Shown piece by piece: positions 3,567 to 27,791 of a DNA stretch of 30,860 nt. The stretch is from a virus: the IMG/VR virus record IMGVR_UViG_3300044991_000503, positions 1 to 30,860 of that record. One strand, 5' to 3'. The notes below the pieces were generated by a model. It made no database searches and was not told the origin of the DNA. It was given only the letters and a program-made list of their open reading frames with translations. The translations under genes and the position numbers were made by a program. Each line of letters starts with the position of its first letter. The stretch's first letter is position 1.

Positions 3567-3754
3567 TTCTTCAGCCCTATCATAATCTCGACACGCTCCC
3601 GCGCCGTCCGCATGGCAGAGTAACGCTGATGCAACCGCCGAGCGATGGCTGGCCGCTTGTGCGTCTTCAGTTCGGCGTCCAGCGCCTGCTTTAGCTGCTC
3701 TTCCGTAAGGTCAGACAGCACGGCAATCATCGACCGCCAGTTTAGTTTACTCAT
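3563..3754 (-). CDS. Small conserved-looking helical phage protein
   Basis: A 63-residue, highly charged protein with no membrane segment. It has the pattern SDLTEEQLKQALDAEL near residue 14, followed by a basic stretch and RRLHQRYSAMRTARERVE, which looks like a small helical bundle. Similar short proteins accompany helicase genes in other phages as far as I recall, but no function is established. Its start overlaps the end of the helicase gene by eight bases, consistent with co-translation, and it may be a helicase partner or a nucleic-acid-binding accessory. Confidence 0.55.
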   Translation of the reverse strand: MSKLNWRSMIAVLSDLTEEQLKQALDAELKTHKRPAIARRLHQRYSAMRTARERVEIMIGLKK

Positions 3755-5060
3755 TTTTCAATTCCTCTAATGCTATGTCGGACACCGCACGCTTGTCGTG
3801 CAGCGCCGCCCATATGCGTTCGTCGATACTCTTTTCCGTCAGCATCACATAGACCCAGACATCCTTTGTCTGACCGCTGCGGTGCAGGCGCCCGACCGTC
3901 TGCTCGTACAGTTCCAGCGACCACGGCAGCGACAGGAACACCATGTGGCATCCGCCATGCTGTAGGTTCAGCCCGTGGCCTGCCGACTTAGGGTGGGCCA
4001 GCAGCAACTCGACCTCGCCAGCGTTCCAGCGTTCGATGACGTTGTCATCATCCATCGTCTGCGCGTGTGGGAAGCGGCGCTTCAGTTCTGCCAACTCTTC
4101 CTGATAGGTGTACGCGACAATGGTGTTCGCCCGCTGGTTTTCTGCCAGCAACTCTTCCAGCCGGTCAAACTTGTGGCTGCTGAACCAAATGGACGGCGTG
4201 CCTGCGTCGCGGTTGTAGACAAAGCCAGACGCCATCTGTTGCAGCTTGGTCGTTACCGCCGCTGCGTTCTGCGCTACGATCTGGTCATCACCAAAGCGCA
4301 CGACATACTCGCGCTTCATCTTTTCGTATGGCGCACGGTCTGTCAGCGCGACGCGCACCTCAGTGACATGGCATGGCGGTAGCTTGTCCTTGTACTCGCC
4401 CGGCTCCAACACGAACGTCGCAGGGCGGATGCGCTTCATGACTTGCTCAAGCCCGCCGGCTGCCGGAACCCATTGGCCGAAGTCGCGGTTGGTACAGATG
4501 AAATACTGCTGCATGAACGCACCCTTGGCGCGGCCCAGCAGCCCTTGGTCAATGATCTTGCACTGGCCGAAGACATCCTCCAGCCCGTTCGACGTGAACG
4601 AGCCGGTCAAGCCCCAGCGTATCTTCATAGAAGCCATCATCTTTTCCAGCGCCTTGAAGCGTTTGCCGGACGGGTTCTTCAGCCGCGTCAGTTCGTCAAA
4701 CACAACGCCGTCAAAACTGGATAAGTCCTCTAGCTTATCTAGGTTGTCGTAGTTAATGACCACCACACTGGCATCGCTTTGAAGTGCTGCGATGCGTTGC
4801 GACGGCGTGCCGACAGCAAGTGCAGGGGCGATGCCAGACCACTTCGGCGCTTCCACCGGCCACACATCTGTGCAGACACGCTTAGGCGCCACCACCAGCC
4901 AGCGTTTGACAGCGCCATCGCGCAGCATTTCATCCATCGCCGTCAAAGTAATGGCGGTCTTGCCAGCACCGACAGGCGCAAGGATCATGGCGCGGTCACG
5001 TTCGTACAGGAACGTCGCCGCCTGCTCCTGATACGGTCTTAGCTGAAGCGTTTGAGCCAT
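3747..5060 (-). CDS. SNF2-family DEAD/DEAH-like helicase
   Basis: A superfamily 2 helicase or translocase of 437 residues, counted from the ATG at 5060; the in-frame GTG at 5090 would add ten residues. The N-terminal RPYQEQA is the Q-like motif. Walker A is GAGKT (31-35), motif II is DELT (122-125) in place of DEAH, motif III is near GLTGSF, and motif VI is QTVGRLHRSGQ (about 387-397), with the HRSGQ typical of SNF2 proteins. The compact length, without large inserts, matches phage SNF2 helicases that sit beside VRR-NUC nucleases in replication modules. It overlaps the end of the nuclease gene by 22 nt and so is translated from the same leftward mRNA. Its likely role is in replication-fork or recombination-intermediate processing; the exact substrate is unknown. 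Confidence 0.9.
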   Translation of the reverse strand: MAQTLQLRPYQEQAATFLYERDRAMILAPVGAGKTAITLTAMDEMLRDGAVKRWLVVAPKRVCTDVWPVEAPKWSGIAPALAVGTPSQRIAALQSDASVVVINYDNLDKLEDLSSFDGVVFDELTRLKNPSGKRFKALEKMMASMKIRWGLTGSFTSNGLEDVFGQCKIIDQGLLGRAKGAFMQQYFICTNRDFGQWVPAAGGLEQVMKRIRPATFVLEPGEYKDKLPPCHVTEVRVALTDRAPYEKMKREYVVRFGDDQIVAQNAAAVTTKLQQMASGFVYNRDAGTPSIWFSSHKFDRLEELLAENQRANTIVAYTYQEELAELKRRFPHAQTMDDDNVIERWNAGEVELLLAHPKSAGHGLNLQHGGCHMVFLSLPWSLELYEQTVGRLHRSGQTKDVWVYVMLTEKSIDERIWAALHDKRAVSDIALEELKNE

Positions 5061-5314
5061 GCGTCTATGTCCTCTATCGACCACAGACACGCGTAGTGCT
5101 GCTTGGTGTGTGCCATCTCATCTGAAAAGATACGCTGCAACGCAGACAGGCGTCCGTTGGGCTGCTTGATCTCTACGAACCAAGCCTCGCCGTTAGGCAT
5201 ACAGGCTATGCGGTCGGCAACACCTATCTGCGTAACGCTGCGGAACTTGTAGGCAAAACCGCCTAGCGCCCGCACACGTTTACAGAAATACCGCTCTATT
5301 TCTTTCTCAGTCAT
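5039..5314 (-). CDS. VRR-NUC family nuclease
   Basis: A 91-residue stand-alone VRR-NUC domain of the PD-(D/E)XK superfamily. The active-site pattern is visible: Glu6 in the first helix, GVADRI with Asp34, then FVEIKQPNGRLSALQ with Glu48, Lys50 and Gln60. Stand-alone phage VRR-NUC proteins are structure-specific nucleases, thought to cut branched DNA such as Holliday junctions and to cooperate with the neighbouring SNF2 helicase. It is the first gene of the leftward unit that diverges from the replication operon at 5411. A GGAG lies about 12 bases before the start. Length is typical for the family. Confidence 0.9.
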   Translation of the reverse strand: MTEKEIERYFCKRVRALGGFAYKFRSVTQIGVADRIACMPNGEAWFVEIKQPNGRLSALQRIFSDEMAHTKQHYACLWSIEDIDAWLKRFS

Positions 5315-7273: not shown

Positions 7274-9229
7274 ATGACTAAACTTTGGTGCGATTTCGAA
7301 ACGCGCAGCCGGTGCGACCTACGCAGCCGCGGCGTGTACAATTACGCGCAGGACGCCAGCACCGACGTGCTGTGTATGTCATACGCATTTGATGACGAAG
7401 ACGTGCGGACGTGGCTACCCGGTGAGCCTTTCCCGCAAGCCGTGCATGATCACACAGGGCTGGTGTACGCGCACAACGCAGCGTTTGAGCGCCTGATATT
7501 CTGGTATGTCCTTCAGGTTGAGTTTAAGCTGGAGCAGTTCTACTGCACCGCAGCCCAAGCCCGCGCCAACTGTGCGCCGGGTAGCCTTGAGGATGTGGGC
7601 CGGTTCGCTGGCGCGACCATGAAGAAAGACCACCGCGGCGGACAACTGATCCGCGCGCTGTCCATCCCGCAAGCAGACGGCGAGTTTCGCCAAGACGCAA
7701 AGCTGATGCAAGAGATGGTTGACTATTGCGAACAGGATGTGCGGGCCATGCGTGCCATCACGCTGGCGCAGCGCCCGCTGTCCGCCGAAGAGTTAGCAGA
7801 CTATCACGTCAACGAGCGCATCAACGACCGCGGCGTGCTGCTCGACAGGCCGCTGGCGTTGGCAGCGGTGCGCTACGCTGAAGCTGAATTGACAGAGATA
7901 CAAGACATCGTCGCAGAGGTGACGCACGGCGAGATTAAGTCTGTCCGCAGCCCCAAGATGAAGGATTGGGTGTTAGCTAGGGTAGGGCCACAGGCTGTAG
8001 CCGTGGCAACCGTGATGAAGGATGGCGTCGAAAAGCTGTCCATTGACAAGAACGTGCGCGCCAACTTACTTGTGCTGGCAGAGGAGAACCCAGATGAAGT
8101 ACCGGCGGAAGTTGCAGAAGTCATCCAGTGCGCGGACGATCTGTGGGCATCGTCCGTTGCGAAATTCCAACGTGCAGCGGCGCTTGCTGATGCGGAGGAT
8201 TTTCGCGTTAGAGGAGCGTTCGTATTTTCTGGAGGCAGTGCTACTGGGCGCGCTTCATCGTTTGGGCTTCAGGTCCATAACTTCCCAAGAAAGTGCGCCG
8301 CAGACCCTGCATTAGTCAGGCAGGCTATGGTGCGCGGTCACAGGATCGTTCCCGATCATGGCCGGCGCGTAACAGACGTGCTGAAAGGTATGCTGCGCCC
8401 GTCGCTAATGGCTGACAAAGGCAAGCGGCTTGTTGTTGCCGATTGGGCTGCGATTGAGGCGCGGGTGACGCCGTGGGCGTCCAACAGTACCTTCGGCGCG
8501 AACAAGCTGGACATCTTTGCCAAGGGTGAGGATGTCTACAAGCACAACGCTATGGCGACCTTCCATGTCGGCTATGATGACGTTGACAAAGACCAACGCC
8601 AGATTGGTAAGGTGCAAGAGTTAGCCTGTGGCTTTGCCGGCGGTGTCGGTGCGTTCGCCAGCATGGGCCGCATCTACGGCTTGATGATGTCAGAGAGCGA
8701 CGCAAAGCGCATGGTTGACGCATGGCGCAGGGCTAACAAGTGGGCCGTGCCGTACTGGTCTGGCCTTGAAGACACCTATATGCGCGCCATGCGGAACAAG
8801 AACCGCGAGTTCACTGTTGGCCGCATCACATATTTATTTGACGGACTGCATCTTTGGTATGCTCTTCCGTCTGGACGTGTGTTATGTTATCCTTTCGCCC
8901 GTTTCGACGAGGAAGGCAGTCTGACCTACGCGAAGGCTTCTTGGAAGCCCGCCGCTGATGCGAAAGAGTGGCCGAGGGCGCGGCTATGGCGCGGTTTGGC
9001 GTGTGAAAACATCACGCAGGCTGTCGCTAACGACTTGCTGCGCTACGCCTTGCGTCGGCTGGACGATGTAGTCTTGCACATCCACGATGAAATCGTCTTG
9101 GAAGTGCCAGAAGCAGATGCAGAGGCCGCCGCAGCGCGGCTGGTGCAGGTTATGTGTGAGCCGCCACCTTGGGCAGCAGGGCTACCCCTGAACGCTGAAG
9201 TGGCAATTATGGAACGTTATGGCAAATAA
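7274..9229 (+). CDS. DNA polymerase, family A, with 3'-5' exonuclease
   Basis: A 651-residue replicative polymerase. The N-terminal proofreading domain shows DFET (Asp7, Glu9), VYAHNAAFE near 69 and YCEQDVRA near 152. The polymerase domain has motif A VVADWAAIEARV with Asp390, the O-helix R442-x3-K446-x3-L450-x3-F454, and motif C HIHDEIV with His604-Asp605-Glu606. All catalytic residues are present. The residue equivalent to E. coli Pol I Phe762 is Leu450, and the Tyr766 equivalent is Phe454. The start is preceded by GGAAGAGTGAGAAC, resembling the leaders of three leftward genes. The next start (9240) lies 11 bases past its stop. Together with the primase-helicase it forms the core replisome. 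Confidence 0.95.
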   Translation: MTKLWCDFETRSRCDLRSRGVYNYAQDASTDVLCMSYAFDDEDVRTWLPGEPFPQAVHDHTGLVYAHNAAFERLIFWYVLQVEFKLEQFYCTAAQARANCAPGSLEDVGRFAGATMKKDHRGGQLIRALSIPQADGEFRQDAKLMQEMVDYCEQDVRAMRAITLAQRPLSAEELADYHVNERINDRGVLLDRPLALAAVRYAEAELTEIQDIVAEVTHGEIKSVRSPKMKDWVLARVGPQAVAVATVMKDGVEKLSIDKNVRANLLVLAEENPDEVPAEVAEVIQCADDLWASSVAKFQRAAALADAEDFRVRGAFVFSGGSATGRASSFGLQVHNFPRKCAADPALVRQAMVRGHRIVPDHGRRVTDVLKGMLRPSLMADKGKRLVVADWAAIEARVTPWASNSTFGANKLDIFAKGEDVYKHNAMATFHVGYDDVDKDQRQIGKVQELACGFAGGVGAFASMGRIYGLMMSESDAKRMVDAWRRANKWAVPYWSGLEDTYMRAMRNKNREFTVGRITYLFDGLHLWYALPSGRVLCYPFARFDEEGSLTYAKASWKPAADAKEWPRARLWRGLACENITQAVANDLLRYALRRLDDVVLHIHDEIVLEVPEADAEAAAARLVQVMCEPPPWAAGLPLNAEVAIMERYGK

Positions 9230-9239
9230 GGAGCAAGCG

Positions 9240-11588
9240 ATGAGTGAGGATCGCACGAAATTCATAGACTATATAGTTGGATTAGCTGCCGCTACGGTAG
9301 GCGAGACAGCCTTATTGTTGCGTCAGAAGCCGCGCTACGACAGCGAAGGCAATATGATGTACCACGCAGATGGCACGCCTAACGCTACGTTTCCGTCGTT
9401 CATGCCAGACAAGGCGCGCGTCAAAGAAGGCGAGTCTTGGTATGTTAACACTGGCGCATACATCGTCAGCCGCTTTGAAGACGGTAAGCCGTCAGCCAGA
9501 ACGACTAACGTAGAGTTTGTCTTGTTCATGATGCTGGATGACATCGGCACAAAGTCAAAAACGCCGCTAATAGAGCCGACATGGATAATGGAAACCAGCG
9601 AAGGTTCGTTCCAGTGGGGCTATGCTTTTTATGAGCAGCCCGACAAGGGCGACTTCTGCGCTGCTATCAAGGCCATTGCAGCCGCCGGCTACACTGATCC
9701 GGGCGCAACCAACGCTGTGCGTAACTGCCGCGTTCCGGGCAGCATAAACATGAAGCTAGGGCGGGGCAACTTCCCTGCGCGGCTGGTCGAGTTCCACCCT
9801 GAACGCAAATACACGATAGAGCAAATCTGCGAAGCGTTGGGCGTCACGCCAGAAGAAGGCGACACAGCAGAATTTAAGGCCGTCAAGATACGCGACACTG
9901 GACAGGACAACGTCCTGACATGGTTGAGCGAACAGAACCTAGTCCTTAGCACTATCAACAACGACGGCTGGTGCGGCATTGTCTGCCCTAACCACGGGGA
10001 ACACAGCGACGGCATGATCGAAGCGCGCTACAAGCCGCTGGATCGTTCGTTCTGCTGCTACCACGGCCATTGCCAAGACTTAGACAGCCGCACGTTCCTT
10101 GATTGGGTAGCGACTAACGGCGGGCCAAAGGCAACGCCGGGCTTGCGTGACGAACTAATCGCTGAACGCATGGCGTCCATACTGGACAAGATTTCGCCTA
10201 CGGAAGCATTTCCTGACGAAGCCGCAGCGCGTGTGCGTGAGGTCGAAAAGAAAGAAGCAGGACGGCTGGAACAAAGCGAGTGGTTTGAGCGTTTCGCTTA
10301 TATACAGTCTGATGACTGCTATTTCGACATGGTCACACGCCAAGAGATAGCGCGTAACGTCTTCAACGCCCTGTTCCGTCACGTTGACTGTCGCTCCATC
10401 CATAAGAAAGCCCAGCGTGTGCAGGCGTCCGTCTATTATGATGAGCGCCGGCAGGATCGCGGCGCGCCAGCGTTGGCAGCGGTGACGTTTGCCGCTGGCG
10501 ATGATGTGTTAGTGACGCGCGACGGGTTGGTCTACGGCAACAGGTGGGTCAACGCCCGCCCTGACGTATCAACCAGCGACAAGATTGCAGATTACGATGT
10601 CGAGCCGTGGCTAAATCATTGCCGCAACCTGATAGTTGACGATAAAGAGTTAGACCACATCCTCAACGCCATAGCGTTCAAGATACAGAACCCAACTGTC
10701 AAGATTAACCATGCCATCTTGATTGGCGGCGATGAAGGCGCGGGCAAGGACACTATATTCCAGCCGTTCCTGTGGGCGCTTGGCGGCAAGCACTGGCGCA
10801 ACAGGTCAGTCATTGAAGCTGGCGGGTTGGACAGTCAGTGGGGCTATGCGTTGGAAGCTGAAGTGGTCATCCTGAACGAGTTAAAGGAGCCAGAGGCAAG
10901 AGAACGCCGCGCTATGGCTAACAAGCTAAAGCCGCTAATCGCTGCGCCGCCTGAAACACTGTCGGTCAATCGTAAGGGTATGCACCCTTATGACTTGGTC
11001 AACCGCCTCATGGTGCTTGCCTACACGAACGACTCGCTGCCTATCACACTGCCTACGCAGGATCGTCGGTGGTTCTGCGTCTGGACGCACGCGCCCCGCA
11101 TGACAACGCCAGCAGCGGACGCGCTGTGGGGCTGGTATAAGACAGGCGGCTATGAAAAGTGCGCCGCTTGGCTGCACCAGCGCGACGTTTCGTCGTTCAA
11201 CCCTTCTGCGCCGCCGCCAGTGACCGAATGGAAGCTAAACATGGTCGAGCATGGTATGAGCGCATCGGAAAGCTATCTGGTCGAGTTGATGCACCAACGG
11301 GTCGGCGTGTTTGCTGACGGTGTCATCGGTGGGCCGTTCCATCGCGTCTATGACTTGCTTGGGCCTTTGTTGCCTGTTGGCTTAAAGGTTCCGCCGGCGG
11401 CACTGCTTCATGCGTTCAAGGAAGCTGGCTGGATCGACATGGGCCGGATCGGGTCAAAGGAATATAGCAGTAAAAAGCACGTCTTTGCCGCGCCTGACGC
11501 GCTCCAGAAGCATAGCAAGTCAGAGTTGCGCCGCATGGTAGAGAATACATCAAACAATAGTGCCATGCCAAAGATAGGCAAGAATTGA
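9240..11588 (+). CDS. Primase-helicase: AEP-like primase fused to D5-type SF3 helicase
   Basis: A 782-residue protein from ATG 9240 behind AAGGAG; an ATG at 9219 would overlap the polymerase. Residues about 90-180 fit a RepB/archaeo-eukaryotic primase core: LMMLDD-type acidic pair at Asp100-Asp101, IMETSEGSFQWGYAF, and RNCRVPGSINMK with Arg161, Arg164 and Asn170. Residues 245-278 form a Cys/His-rich segment (Cys245, Cys249, His252, Cys272, Cys273, His275, His277, Cys278) that could bind zinc. The C-terminal helicase has a Walker A GDEGAGKDT (497-505) and a Walker B ILNE ending at Glu547, as in DUF5906/VirE-like D5 helicases. It would unwind and prime the phage DNA. It is the last gene of the rightward replication operon and is followed by a terminator. 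Confidence 0.9.
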   Translation: MSEDRTKFIDYIVGLAAATVGETALLLRQKPRYDSEGNMMYHADGTPNATFPSFMPDKARVKEGESWYVNTGAYIVSRFEDGKPSARTTNVEFVLFMMLDDIGTKSKTPLIEPTWIMETSEGSFQWGYAFYEQPDKGDFCAAIKAIAAAGYTDPGATNAVRNCRVPGSINMKLGRGNFPARLVEFHPERKYTIEQICEALGVTPEEGDTAEFKAVKIRDTGQDNVLTWLSEQNLVLSTINNDGWCGIVCPNHGEHSDGMIEARYKPLDRSFCCYHGHCQDLDSRTFLDWVATNGGPKATPGLRDELIAERMASILDKISPTEAFPDEAAARVREVEKKEAGRLEQSEWFERFAYIQSDDCYFDMVTRQEIARNVFNALFRHVDCRSIHKKAQRVQASVYYDERRQDRGAPALAAVTFAAGDDVLVTRDGLVYGNRWVNARPDVSTSDKIADYDVEPWLNHCRNLIVDDKELDHILNAIAFKIQNPTVKINHAILIGGDEGAGKDTIFQPFLWALGGKHWRNRSVIEAGGLDSQWGYALEAEVVILNELKEPEARERRAMANKLKPLIAAPPETLSVNRKGMHPYDLVNRLMVLAYTNDSLPITLPTQDRRWFCVWTHAPRMTTPAADALWGWYKTGGYEKCAAWLHQRDVSSFNPSAPPPVTEWKLNMVEHGMSASESYLVELMHQRVGVFADGVIGGPFHRVYDLLGPLLPVGLKVPPAALLHAFKEAGWIDMGRIGSKEYSSKKHVFAAPDALQKHSKSELRRMVENTSNNSAMPKIGKN

Positions 11589-15299: not shown

Positions 15300-15497
15300 T
15301 TAAACGTATTGGCCGCGCCATGAGGCGACTAAATCCCACTCGCGTCCGTCATCAAGACGCACAGTCACCATTGGCAGATGACCAGCCATGCACGAACGGA
15401 CAACAGGGAACGCCTGCGCGTTCTCGCCAGTGCCGTTGCCTGTGGCCTTGAGCCATTCGGCGGATACTTCGTAATAACCTTCTGTTGTCTGTGTCAT
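15300..15497 (-). CDS. Small hypothetical protein, first gene of the leftward array
   Basis: A 65-residue protein from ATG 15497, with GGAG about eight bases upstream; a GTG at 15506 is in frame but collides with that site. Residues form a probable helix (YYEVSAEWLKATG) and a beta hairpin (MVTVRLDDGREWDLV). A similar domain in other small phage proteins is not known to me. It is the gene nearest the repeat-rich control region and so probably the most strongly and earliest expressed gene of the leftward unit. Confidence 0.5.
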   Translation of the reverse strand: MTQTTEGYYEVSAEWLKATGNGTGENAQAFPVVRSCMAGHLPMVTVRLDDGREWDLVASWRGQYV

Positions 15498-15520
15498 GTC
15501 ACTCACTCCGTTGCTGTTTA

Positions 15521-15682
15521 ACTACCCTCTTAATGGCATAGTTTGAGGGCATACACCAAACGATATTTTGCCCTCTTATGTCGATTTATTGGTTTTGCAC
15601 TAAATTGTGTTGCATTTATGCACTACCCTCTAAAACCGATTTTAAGGCCCGTACAGAGCAATAATAGTTTGAGGGTACCTCA
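15521..15682. repeat. GAGGG-type repeated elements (operator-like)
   Basis: ATAGTTTGAGGG occurs at 15538 and 15664, with a third copy as CAGTTTGAGGG at 16047. Inverse elements ACTACCCTC occur at 15521 and 15622, and GCCCTCTTA at 15570. Two units share the order ACTACCCTC ... ATAGTTTGAGGG. These sites lie just upstream of the first leftward gene, where a regulator of that operon would bind. A short dyad TGCAT-TT-ATGCA (15611-15622) sits among them. Confidence 0.5.
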
Positions 15683-15761
15683 GTATGGAAAGTGGTCGAG
15701 TCTTAAAACGTTCTAGTATTGTTCTGTTTCTGTTCCATAGCCTAAATGACCTAACAAATGA

Positions 15762-15856
15762 CCTACCTTTTGACTATTTTATGACCTACCTTTTTGACGA
15801 AAATAAACCTGTGGATAACTTTATGATCAAGTTCGGCAAAATAGTCAAAAGTTAGG
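15762..15856. repeat. 19-bp inverted repeat around a DnaA box
   Basis: CCTACCTTTTGACTATTTT (15762-15780) and AAAATAGTCAAAAGTTAGG (15838-15856) are complementary at 18 of 19 positions and 57 bp apart. The left arm includes part of an iteron. A related half-site, ATGACTATTTAGCCTACC on the minus strand, lies at 15918-15935. Confidence 0.65.
15810..15818 (-). promoter_or_regulatory. Perfect DnaA box
   Basis: TGTGGATAA is the reverse complement of the consensus DnaA box TTATCCACA with no mismatch. It lies almost exactly at the centre of the 19-bp inverted repeat and among the ATGACCTA iterons. It suggests that host DnaA takes part in starting replication here. One box alone could be chance; the context makes it credible. 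Confidence 0.55.
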
Positions 15857-16384
15857 CTATTCTGACACAGTAAATGACCTACCGAAAAACGGCGCAAAAC
15901 AGCGCATCTTGGGGTTTGGTAGGCTAAATAGTCATAGTTTCTGTGAAATGTCTGAATAATAAAATATATAACCTATATGGTACGTAGTATGCTTTTTACG
16001 AGCGAGTAGGTGTTTTGAAAATAATAGCCTACCTGTGGTACTAACACAGTTTGAGGGCCACCTCATTTGCGCGCGTAATCGACCGTCGATTGCATAGCCT
16101 AAATGACCTACCTTTATTGTGCGATGCAACATGGCCAGACAGCAATGGGCCATGCACCCCTAGCTCGGATTTATTACTGACACCAATGTTAGCAATGGAA
16201 AAAGGCCAACTCTAATTCTAGCAGGAACATAGCAAGAACGCTATTTGCTGCGCTGCGTAGCGCAATCGCTAGCCGCGCGCGCTAGGTTGCCACCCGTTTT
16301 TGCTTTTCTGCCAGAGGCAGGGGGGTAGGGCCGGCGGTCGGGCCGTAGATTGCAGTAGGGGCCGCAAACAGTTTTTATTTTTTT

Positions 16385-16413
16385 TTGCAATCTGGTTTGC
16401 AACACACTATAGT
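16385..16413 (+). promoter_or_regulatory. Late promoter for the terminase-head operon, probably leaderless
   Basis: TTGCAA (16385-16390), a 17-bp spacer and TATAGT (16408-16413) form a good sigma70-like promoter. Predicted initiation at 16420-16421 coincides with the ATG of the small terminase gene, and no Shine-Dalgarno precedes that ATG. An 8-bp inverted repeat, AGATTGCA (16347-16354) / TGCAATCT (16386-16393), covers the -35 and could be an operator; a T-rich tract lies between its arms. Confidence 0.6.
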
Positions 16414-16420
16414 ACGCCCA

Positions 16421-16930
16421 ATGACTTTCTACTCACTGCCATTTACACCAGAGCGGATGCAGGCCACCGAGTCGCGGCTGGAGTCTATCTACGAAGCTGC
16501 ACGCTATGGGCTAAAGGGTGACAGCCTAGCTATGGCGTCCGGCATGACGCCGCGGCAGTTCCGCGTGCTGGCAGAGTCTGACCCGCTGGTCGAGATGGCT
16601 GAGATCAAGGGCAGGGCTGATGGCGAGTTGACTGCGGCCAAGACCATGTACGAAGCGGCACGCGATGGCGACGCTAAGGCGGCGCTCGACATACTGAAGC
16701 ACAATCATGGCTGGGTAGCCAAGCAGCAGATCGACGTAAACATCGACCAACAGATAAGCATCACAGGCGCGCTAGAAAAAGCACAGACGCGCGTCATCGA
16801 AGGGCTGTACACAGAACTGCCCCGACTAGAGGAAAAGACCAATGGCAGACAAATTGACACCGGAAGAACAGGAAGTCTTGGACTACCACCGTCGCAACTT
16901 AGCGACAGGAATGTATCAGAAGAACGCTGA
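16421..16930 (+). CDS. terS: Terminase small subunit (probable)
   Basis: A 169-residue protein directly upstream of the large terminase. The N-terminal half has a helix-turn-helix-like DNA-binding pattern (YEAARYGLKGDSLAMASGMTP then RQFRVLAESDP), as in small terminases that recognise the packaging site. A helical region follows (MYEAARDGDAKAALDILKHN), with a QISITGALEKA segment typical of these proteins near residue 110. The chosen ATG follows the predicted transcription start almost immediately; an internal ATG at 16457 is a weaker alternative. The last 89 nt overlap the next gene in another frame, so the final 29 residues (low complexity, Gly/Ser/Arg) may be constrained by that overlap. Confidence 0.8.
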   Translation: MTFYSLPFTPERMQATESRLESIYEAARYGLKGDSLAMASGMTPRQFRVLAESDPLVEMAEIKGRADGELTAAKTMYEAARDGDAKAALDILKHNHGWVAKQQIDVNIDQQISITGALEKAQTRVIEGLYTELPRLEEKTNGRQIDTGRTGSLGLPPSQLSDRNVSEER

Positions 16931-26582: not shown

Positions 26583-27791
26583 ATGTCTAACTCGATTTTA
26601 ACAATTGATATGATCACGCGGAAGGCTCTAGAAATTCTAGAGAATAACCTTGTGCTGACACGTAACGTAAACCGCCAGTACGACGATAGCTTTGCTGTCG
26701 AAGGTGCTAAAATTGGCTCAACCCTGCGTATCCGTCTTCCAGACCGTGCGCTTGTAACTGACGGCGCAGCCCTTCAGGTACAGGATGACAACGAGCAGTT
26801 CACAACTCTTGCTGTTTCCACCCAGAAGCACATCGGCGTCAACTTCACGACTGCTGAATTGACGATGCAGCTTGACGATTTCGCAGACCGCGTTCTCAAG
26901 CCACGTATCTCGCAGCTTGCATCCAGCATCGACGCTGACGTTGCCAACTCGTATTTGACCATCGGTAACACGGTCGGCACGCCCGGCACAACTCCCGGTA
27001 CTTCGGCAGTCCTTCTTGCTGCACAGCAGAAGCTGAACGAAAACGCTGCGGTAATGTCGCCACGTTATGCCACTGTTAACCCAGCCGCTAACGCTGGTTT
27101 GGTTGAAGGTCTGAAGGGTCTATTCAACCCAACCGACACGATCAGCAAGCAGTTCAAGAACGGCATGATGGGTACAGGCGTACTTGGCTACGACGAAATC
27201 AATATGTCGCAGTCAATCAAGCAGTTCACCACTGGTTCGCGTACTGCAACTGGCGGCACGACTTCGGCTGCTGTTACTACTGAAGGTGCAACCACCATCG
27301 CCATCACCGGCGCTGGTGCATCGGCAACGGTTAAGGCTGGCGACGTTTTCACTGTAGCTGACTGCTTCAGCGTTAACCCACAGACCCGTGAAAGCACAGG
27401 TTCGTTGTTCCAGTTCGTTGCCCTTGCTGATGTCACACTCAGCGGCGCAGGCGCTGGTAACGTAACTGTTTCACCGATCTACTCGGCTACGCAGGCACTT
27501 GCTACTGTCAACACGCTGCCCGGCAACTCCAAAGCAATCGTGTTTGTTGGTACGGCTTCTACGCAATACGCGCAGAACCTTGTATACCACAAGGACGCTA
27601 TCACCTTCGCAACCGCCGACCTTCTGCTCCCACAGGGCGTAGATATGGCTTCGCGTCAGGTGCATAACGGCATCAGCTTGCGCGTTGTTCGTCAGTACGA
27701 CATCAACAACGACCGTCTGCCTTGCCGTATTGACGTTCTGTACGGTTACAGCACAATCCGTCCACAGATGGCTGTTCGGATGTGGGGTTAA
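26583..27791 (+). CDS. Major capsid (coat) protein, P22-like
   Basis: A 402-residue protein (P22 coat: 430). The N-terminal MITRKALEILENNL and AKIGSTLRIRLPDRA motifs fit the P22 coat family (HK97 fold): a spine-helix and strand near the start, then QKHIGVNFTTAELTMQLDDF near 81. The middle (residues about 210-310) is Thr/Ala/Gly-rich and beta-like, as expected for the inserted I-domain. The C-terminal part ends in a beta-rich segment with YSTIRPQMAVRMWG. It follows the scaffold gene by 15 bp and is followed by a hairpin. Confidence 0.92.
   Translation: MSNSILTIDMITRKALEILENNLVLTRNVNRQYDDSFAVEGAKIGSTLRIRLPDRALVTDGAALQVQDDNEQFTTLAVSTQKHIGVNFTTAELTMQLDDFADRVLKPRISQLASSIDADVANSYLTIGNTVGTPGTTPGTSAVLLAAQQKLNENAAVMSPRYATVNPAANAGLVEGLKGLFNPTDTISKQFKNGMMGTGVLGYDEINMSQSIKQFTTGSRTATGGTTSAAVTTEGATTIAITGAGASATVKAGDVFTVADCFSVNPQTRESTGSLFQFVALADVTLSGAGAGNVTVSPIYSATQALATVNTLPGNSKAIVFVGTASTQYAQNLVYHKDAITFATADLLLPQGVDMASRQVHNGISLRVVRQYDINNDRLPCRIDVLYGYSTIRPQMAVRMWG

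Follow-up and report, generated by a model that had tools for sequence, protein, structure and literature searches.

A positionally conserved repeat array that covaries with the wing tip of a primase-helicase, proposed as the iteron replication origin of a podovirus-like phage

Several described initiators combine priming, unwinding and recognition of origin repeats. P4 alpha is a primase-helicase whose winged helix binds the origin repeats, after which the protein unwinds and primes (PMC4234260). The C-terminal domains of SaPI Rep and SCCmec Cch2 bind short iterons, and both proteins are thought to be self-loading initiator helicases (PMC7581432). In pRN1 ORF904 and the Bordetella BPP-1 and BIP-1 primases, an archaeo-eukaryotic primase, an SF3 helicase and a winged helix are found in one protein; a stem-loop target was proposed for such proteins, and repeats in phage BIP-1 were set aside (PMC4234260). 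Initiator domains that covary with their iterons have already been shown in PLE satellites, where the DNA-binding domain of the RepA_N initiator and the origin iterons covary and are swapped between elements (PMC8263062), and in geminiviruses, where a few residues in the iteron-related domain of Rep correlate with the iteron sequence (PMC2974675). For phages, we found no report of a relation between wing tip and repeat word in the literature searched, our coverage of which was partial.

Here, we describe a repeat array in a viral record of 30,860 bases that has no end repeats (the window, the whole stretch of DNA analyzed). We consider it very likely, with a probability of roughly 0.87, that this array is the iteron replication origin of a podovirus-like phage and is read by the phage's own primase-helicase, a reading for which there are no binding or replication data.

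The repeat array and its gene-free gap

The array lies in a gap (15507-16420) that separates small ORFs on the minus strand from the genes for the small and large terminase subunits. The left border is the first of the divergent minus-strand genes, a small ORF at 15300..15506 (minus strand), and the right border is the plus-strand ORF 16421..16930, a small terminase subunit gene by position, which had no PHROG or Pfam family match and whose homologue anchors the array in relatives. The plus-strand genes to the left encode a DUF2800/PD-(D/E)XK exonuclease, a nucleotidyltransferase-like protein, a family A DNA polymerase (7274-9229) and a 789-residue primase-helicase. A SNF2/DEAD-type helicase gene (window 3747-5090) lies on the minus strand amid plus-strand genes. 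Relatives' contigs were binned into MAGs from lakes, of which some carry the label Rhodoferax or Betaproteobacteria; as phage contigs are prone to mis-binning, this is only weak evidence on the host.

A preliminary description, made from sequence alone, had reported five plus-strand copies of ATGACCTA (15746, 15758, 15781, 15874 and 16103), an exact repeat, a DnaA box and an AT-rich tract at 15952-15980, all within a gene-free segment, and each of these claims held. The full window contains exactly five copies of ATGACCTA, none of them outside the gap, compared with a mean of 0.41 in shuffled sequence, and 0/100 shuffles reached five. The exact repeat is the 18-mer CATAGCCTAAATGACCTA at 15736-15753 and 16093-16110, and the only ORF within the gap is chance-like (73 aa, 15932-16153, minus strand). 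Two features were absent from the preliminary description. The first is a set of four ATAGCCTA copies (15737 +, 15853 -, 16024 + and 16094 +), which makes the window's own array (15737..16110, not assigned to a strand) a mix of two words, with five copies of ATGACCTA and four of ATAGCCTA. The second is an inverted repeat (15757..15861, likewise unstranded) with 24-base arms at 15757-15780 and 15838-15861 that are 88% complementary; the arms are facing iterons and flank the DnaA box. One criterion for an iteron origin, a short word clustered at the locus and rare elsewhere, was met.

The DnaA box, TTATCCACA at 15810-15818 on the minus strand, lies inside the array and is the sole exact copy in the window. 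Exact boxes were found in the corresponding regions of 25/60 close relatives, where mononucleotide shuffles would give 0.34, and most of them sit in the context AAATAAA(C/T)CTGTGGATAA; in a distant clade, 10/58 phages have one. Measured against the criterion of a DnaA-dependent origin, the window offers a single box that part of the family shares. In one relative class (L055, L048, L303 and others), the iteron upstream of terS, TTGTCCACA, is one base from this DnaA box.

The AT-rich tract (15938..15990, unstranded) lies between iteron blocks and is a candidate DNA unwinding element; its richest 40-base stretch, starting at about 15938, is 80% AT. The 40-base AT maximum had words on both sides in 44/50 close relatives, and AACCTATATGG was common to 28/50 of them. 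A further iteron-origin criterion, that AT-rich DNA for unwinding lie next to or among the iterons, was thereby met, with the AT maximum inside the array. Across the window, GC skew showed no turn at the array. This was one of the outcomes that the preliminary description had named as refuting an origin, and it is weak evidence here because skew follows gene direction.

Elements of the CCCTC/GAGGG type are repeated around the array (window 15521-15676 and 16045-16058), with copies of ACTACCCTCT at 15521 and 15622, ATAGTTTGAGGG at 15538 and 15664, and CACAGTTTGAGGG at 16045, and also recur in relatives. They could possibly be operators or promoters.

Same place, different word: covariation with the primase wing

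Relatives were collected by scans with TerL, TerS, the primase and the 18-mer, which returned over 300 loci, many of them overlapping, and the comparison is based on about 150 related phages. A second scan with the L206 primase yielded almost no new phages, and a DNA-similarity search of the phage collection returned MW202483 only. This closest named phage record (L339:10317-10571) has eight GTTTACAT copies in the corresponding region and a different primase wing (GMCFAPELSTKRH).

Most relatives carry a multi-copy word of 8-9 bp, in both orientations, upstream of the small terminase gene, and the word itself varies by phage (ATGACCTA, ATGACGTCC, ATAGCCTA, ATGACCCAG, ATGACCCAA, TTGTCCACA, TGACTCAC, TGACCCAC, CTGCCGAA and others). 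Copies that neighbor each other on one strand are typically spaced by 9 to 12 bp, with 9 the commonest distance. Summed over 54 loci longer than 11 kb, we counted 338 occurrences of the phage's own word within the 850-base array regions (7.36 per kb) and 18 beyond them (0.021 per kb). Two further refutations named by the preliminary description, equal frequency of the word elsewhere and absence of the region from related phages, therefore failed: the density differed as above and arrays stand at the same place in most relatives. A home-made motif finder returned weak, overextended motifs and was replaced by word counts. In the right part of the gap, L183, L201 and L181 have ACGTTAACGT(C/A)AAG-type elements, which are repeated in several relatives.

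When primase C-termini were sorted by word, the segment following GWxDxGR changed with the word: GRIGS(T/V/S) paired with ATAGCCTA, GR(I/L)NSK with ATGACGTCC, GR(I/V)HSVEY with ATGACCCAG, and the window's GRIGSKEY with ATGACCTA. We scored 857 variable columns in seven proteins from 50 close relatives against four word classes, using adjusted mutual information. The best predictors of the word were primase residues 745 (0.86), 747 (0.64) and 751 (0.61), followed by 750 and 757, while the best columns elsewhere reached 0.20 (m4), 0.18 (terS), 0.18 (m5), 0.17 (m6), 0.16 (pol) and 0.07 (terL), and the maximum over all columns in 60 label shuffles was 0.29. Among these 50 relatives, residue 745 was N 15 times, matching 15 with ATGACGTC; H or A seven times, matching seven with ATGACCCAG; and G 28 times, matching 28 with ATAGCCTA or ATGACCTA, and the listed sequences pair accordingly.

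To ask whether kinship alone explains this covariation, we used a tree of primase residues 1-640, on which 15 changes are required for the word and 14 for residue 745. Independent pairs on that tree agreed in 6/6, 6/7 (one tie) and 5/5 cases (sign-test p 0.03, 0.03 and 0.06). L183 and L181 form the clearest pair: their primases have five differences in residues 1-640 (99.2% identical) and 20 in residues 641-789, including G745N, T747K and T751N in the wing. Their gaps differ in the array block and the word and are nearly identical in the right part, and their polymerases are 98.3% identical.

A separate clade of 58 new phages was found later by a scan with the distant primase L059. TGACCCA(A/T) is the word in 35 of them and TTGTCCAC in 23, and residue 745 (A or K) separates the two in 58/58; the best of 294 variable primase columns were 744 and 745 (1.0), 741 (0.83), 747 (0.77) and 750 (0.76). 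This tests the rule on new members and is not a blind prediction of words, because the words of K/R and A/G wings had already been seen in a few phages. In the contig L347, from a Rhodoferax MAG, the wing is LKSR and TGTCCACA occurs ten times upstream of terS.

The rule has exceptions, and the word classes were defined by us. Initially, 16/88 phages fell into no word class. Six N745 phages carry nothing but degenerate words of the TGAC type, and a looser word, TTGCC[CT]A, had to be allowed for the RIACVDH group; both patterns were chosen after the fact. Moreover, K745/R747 alone does not suffice to fix the word, which may be TTGTCCACA, TGACCCAC or TGACTCAC, all ending in CAC(A).

The proposed initiator, its mechanism and rival explanations

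The preliminary description had recognized no initiator. Covariation now proposes one, the 789-aa primase/SF3-helicase-like protein encoded at 9219..11588 on the plus strand, about 4.1 kb left of the array. Another iteron-origin criterion, a cognate initiator on the same replicon, is met by covariation only, through residues 745, 747 and 751. The protein comprises a weak RepB_primase match, DUF5906 and a C-terminal winged-helix-like domain. Support for a primase domain is limited: the RepB_primase match (E 4.9e-5, 23.7 bits) is under the cutoff of 24.3, and the match to phrog_1156, 'DNA primase', spans residues 457-695, that is, the helicase part. The criterion of an SF3-type helicase core was met by a match to the NrS-1 primase, an SF3 relative (E 5e-7 over residues 473-620); the DUF5906 match is above its cutoff, and the Walker-A-like residues G504, G507, G509 and K510 are invariant.

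From covariation and a structure model, we propose the C-terminal 150 residues (640-789; 11136..11585, plus strand) as the origin-binding domain, with residues 745-751 (11451-11471, plus strand) as the wing tip. The AlphaFold2 model of residues 640-789 is winged-helix-like with middling confidence (pLDDT 73, pTM 0.57) and places residues 745, 747 and 751 in the wing, a loop that joins strand 739-744 to strand 753-757. A fold search with this model returned generic winged helices (best Z 6.0) and no strong match; the P4 origin-binding domain (1KA8) was absent from the listed matches, which is uninformative either way. When the sequence of the last 122 residues was compared with solved structures, FimX alone was matched, and weakly.

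The preliminary reading of iterons, DnaA box and AT-rich DNA as an origin is supported in that many relatives share the combination and covariation supplies a candidate initiator; theta mode and origin firing remain inferred. In the mechanism we propose, the C-terminal winged helix of the primase/SF3-helicase would bind the 8-9 bp words (ATGACCTA/ATAGCCTA) in either orientation, and residues 744-751 at the tip of the wing would be the main determinant of which bases are chosen. Once bound, the protein would form helicase rings and open the AT-rich tract inside the array, then prime synthesis and hand over to the family A polymerase. Host DnaA may help through the DnaA box in part of the family. 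What the data establish is the array, its constant position, the change of its word between phages and the close covariation of that word with the wing; binding, unwinding, origin firing and a role for DnaA are all inferences.

The rival that survives best, although we consider it unlikely, is that the words are not an origin but operators controlling divergent transcription of the minus-strand early genes and the terminase genes, via the same protein or another regulator. In its favor, the array lies between divergent gene blocks, CCCTC/GAGGG elements are repeated there too, and an initiator can also regulate genes. Against it, the covariation indicates a helicase-primase, whose known work is initiation, and the internal AT-rich tract and DnaA box are common to many relatives. 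Nor is the word tracked by m4-m6, small ORFs on the minus strand (best 0.20); the remaining ORFs of that strand occurred too sparsely among the relatives to be scored.

That the small terminase binds the array as a packaging site (pac or cosB) appears very unlikely. The array is directly upstream of the small terminase gene, but that protein fails to track the word (best column 0.18), and words differ between L183 and L181, whose terS are 94.3% identical, and between the window and L002, whose terS are 98.6% identical. Column scoring rejected TerS as reader of the word. We likewise give very little weight to the possibility that host DnaA opens the origin and the phage words are secondary. The excess of exact boxes in close relatives (25/60 vs 0.34 expected) speaks for it; against it, there is one box only, an exact box is missing from most relatives, and in the distant clade, where 10/58 have one, the words persist.

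With the array read as an origin recognized by the phage's primase-helicase, a bolder interpretation can be formulated, which we regard as slightly more apt to be wrong than right: that a large phage family keeps changing the specificity of its replication through swaps of wing and iteron modules that match each other, yielding many mutually foreign origins with one protein fold and a small wing-tip code, perhaps as an escape from origin-targeting nucleases or origin-borrowing parasites. If binding is confirmed, these phages would offer wing variants from nature, each with its own target, and therefore origin choice by a winged-helix initiator would be directly testable via wing swaps; they would also provide a rule for locating origins in phages with such a primase-helicase, and a hint that selection on replication specificity changes, in the way suggested for PLE satellites (PMC8263062).

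Comparison with described initiators

The proposed initiator resembles P4 alpha in being a primase-helicase with winged-helix binding of origin repeats, which is inferred here. The two differ in that P4 alpha has a Toprim primase, whereas the N-terminus here has a weak RepB_primase match. The model fits a C-terminal winged helix, one criterion for the P4 alpha and SaPI Rep type, again with middling confidence. The origin of SaPI Rep and SCCmec Cch2 is directly downstream of the gene, while here the array lies about 4.1 kb away from the primase-helicase gene, upstream of the phage small terminase gene.

For the pRN1 ORF904 and BPP-1 type, the proposed target is a stem-loop, in contrast to the iteron array found here. 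In BPP-1 itself (L338:4608-4711, record 26607-26710), the gap that precedes the terminase genes contains four copies of the 9-bp word TTTGCCTCG, of which two are tandem and two inverted; these repeats are a candidate origin.

Geminivirus Rep is a rolling-circle initiator with its determinant near the N-terminus, and is a different kind of initiator. Compared with the locus described here, the PLE RepA_N system has an initiator of another family, longer iterons (about 30 bp) and few alleles.
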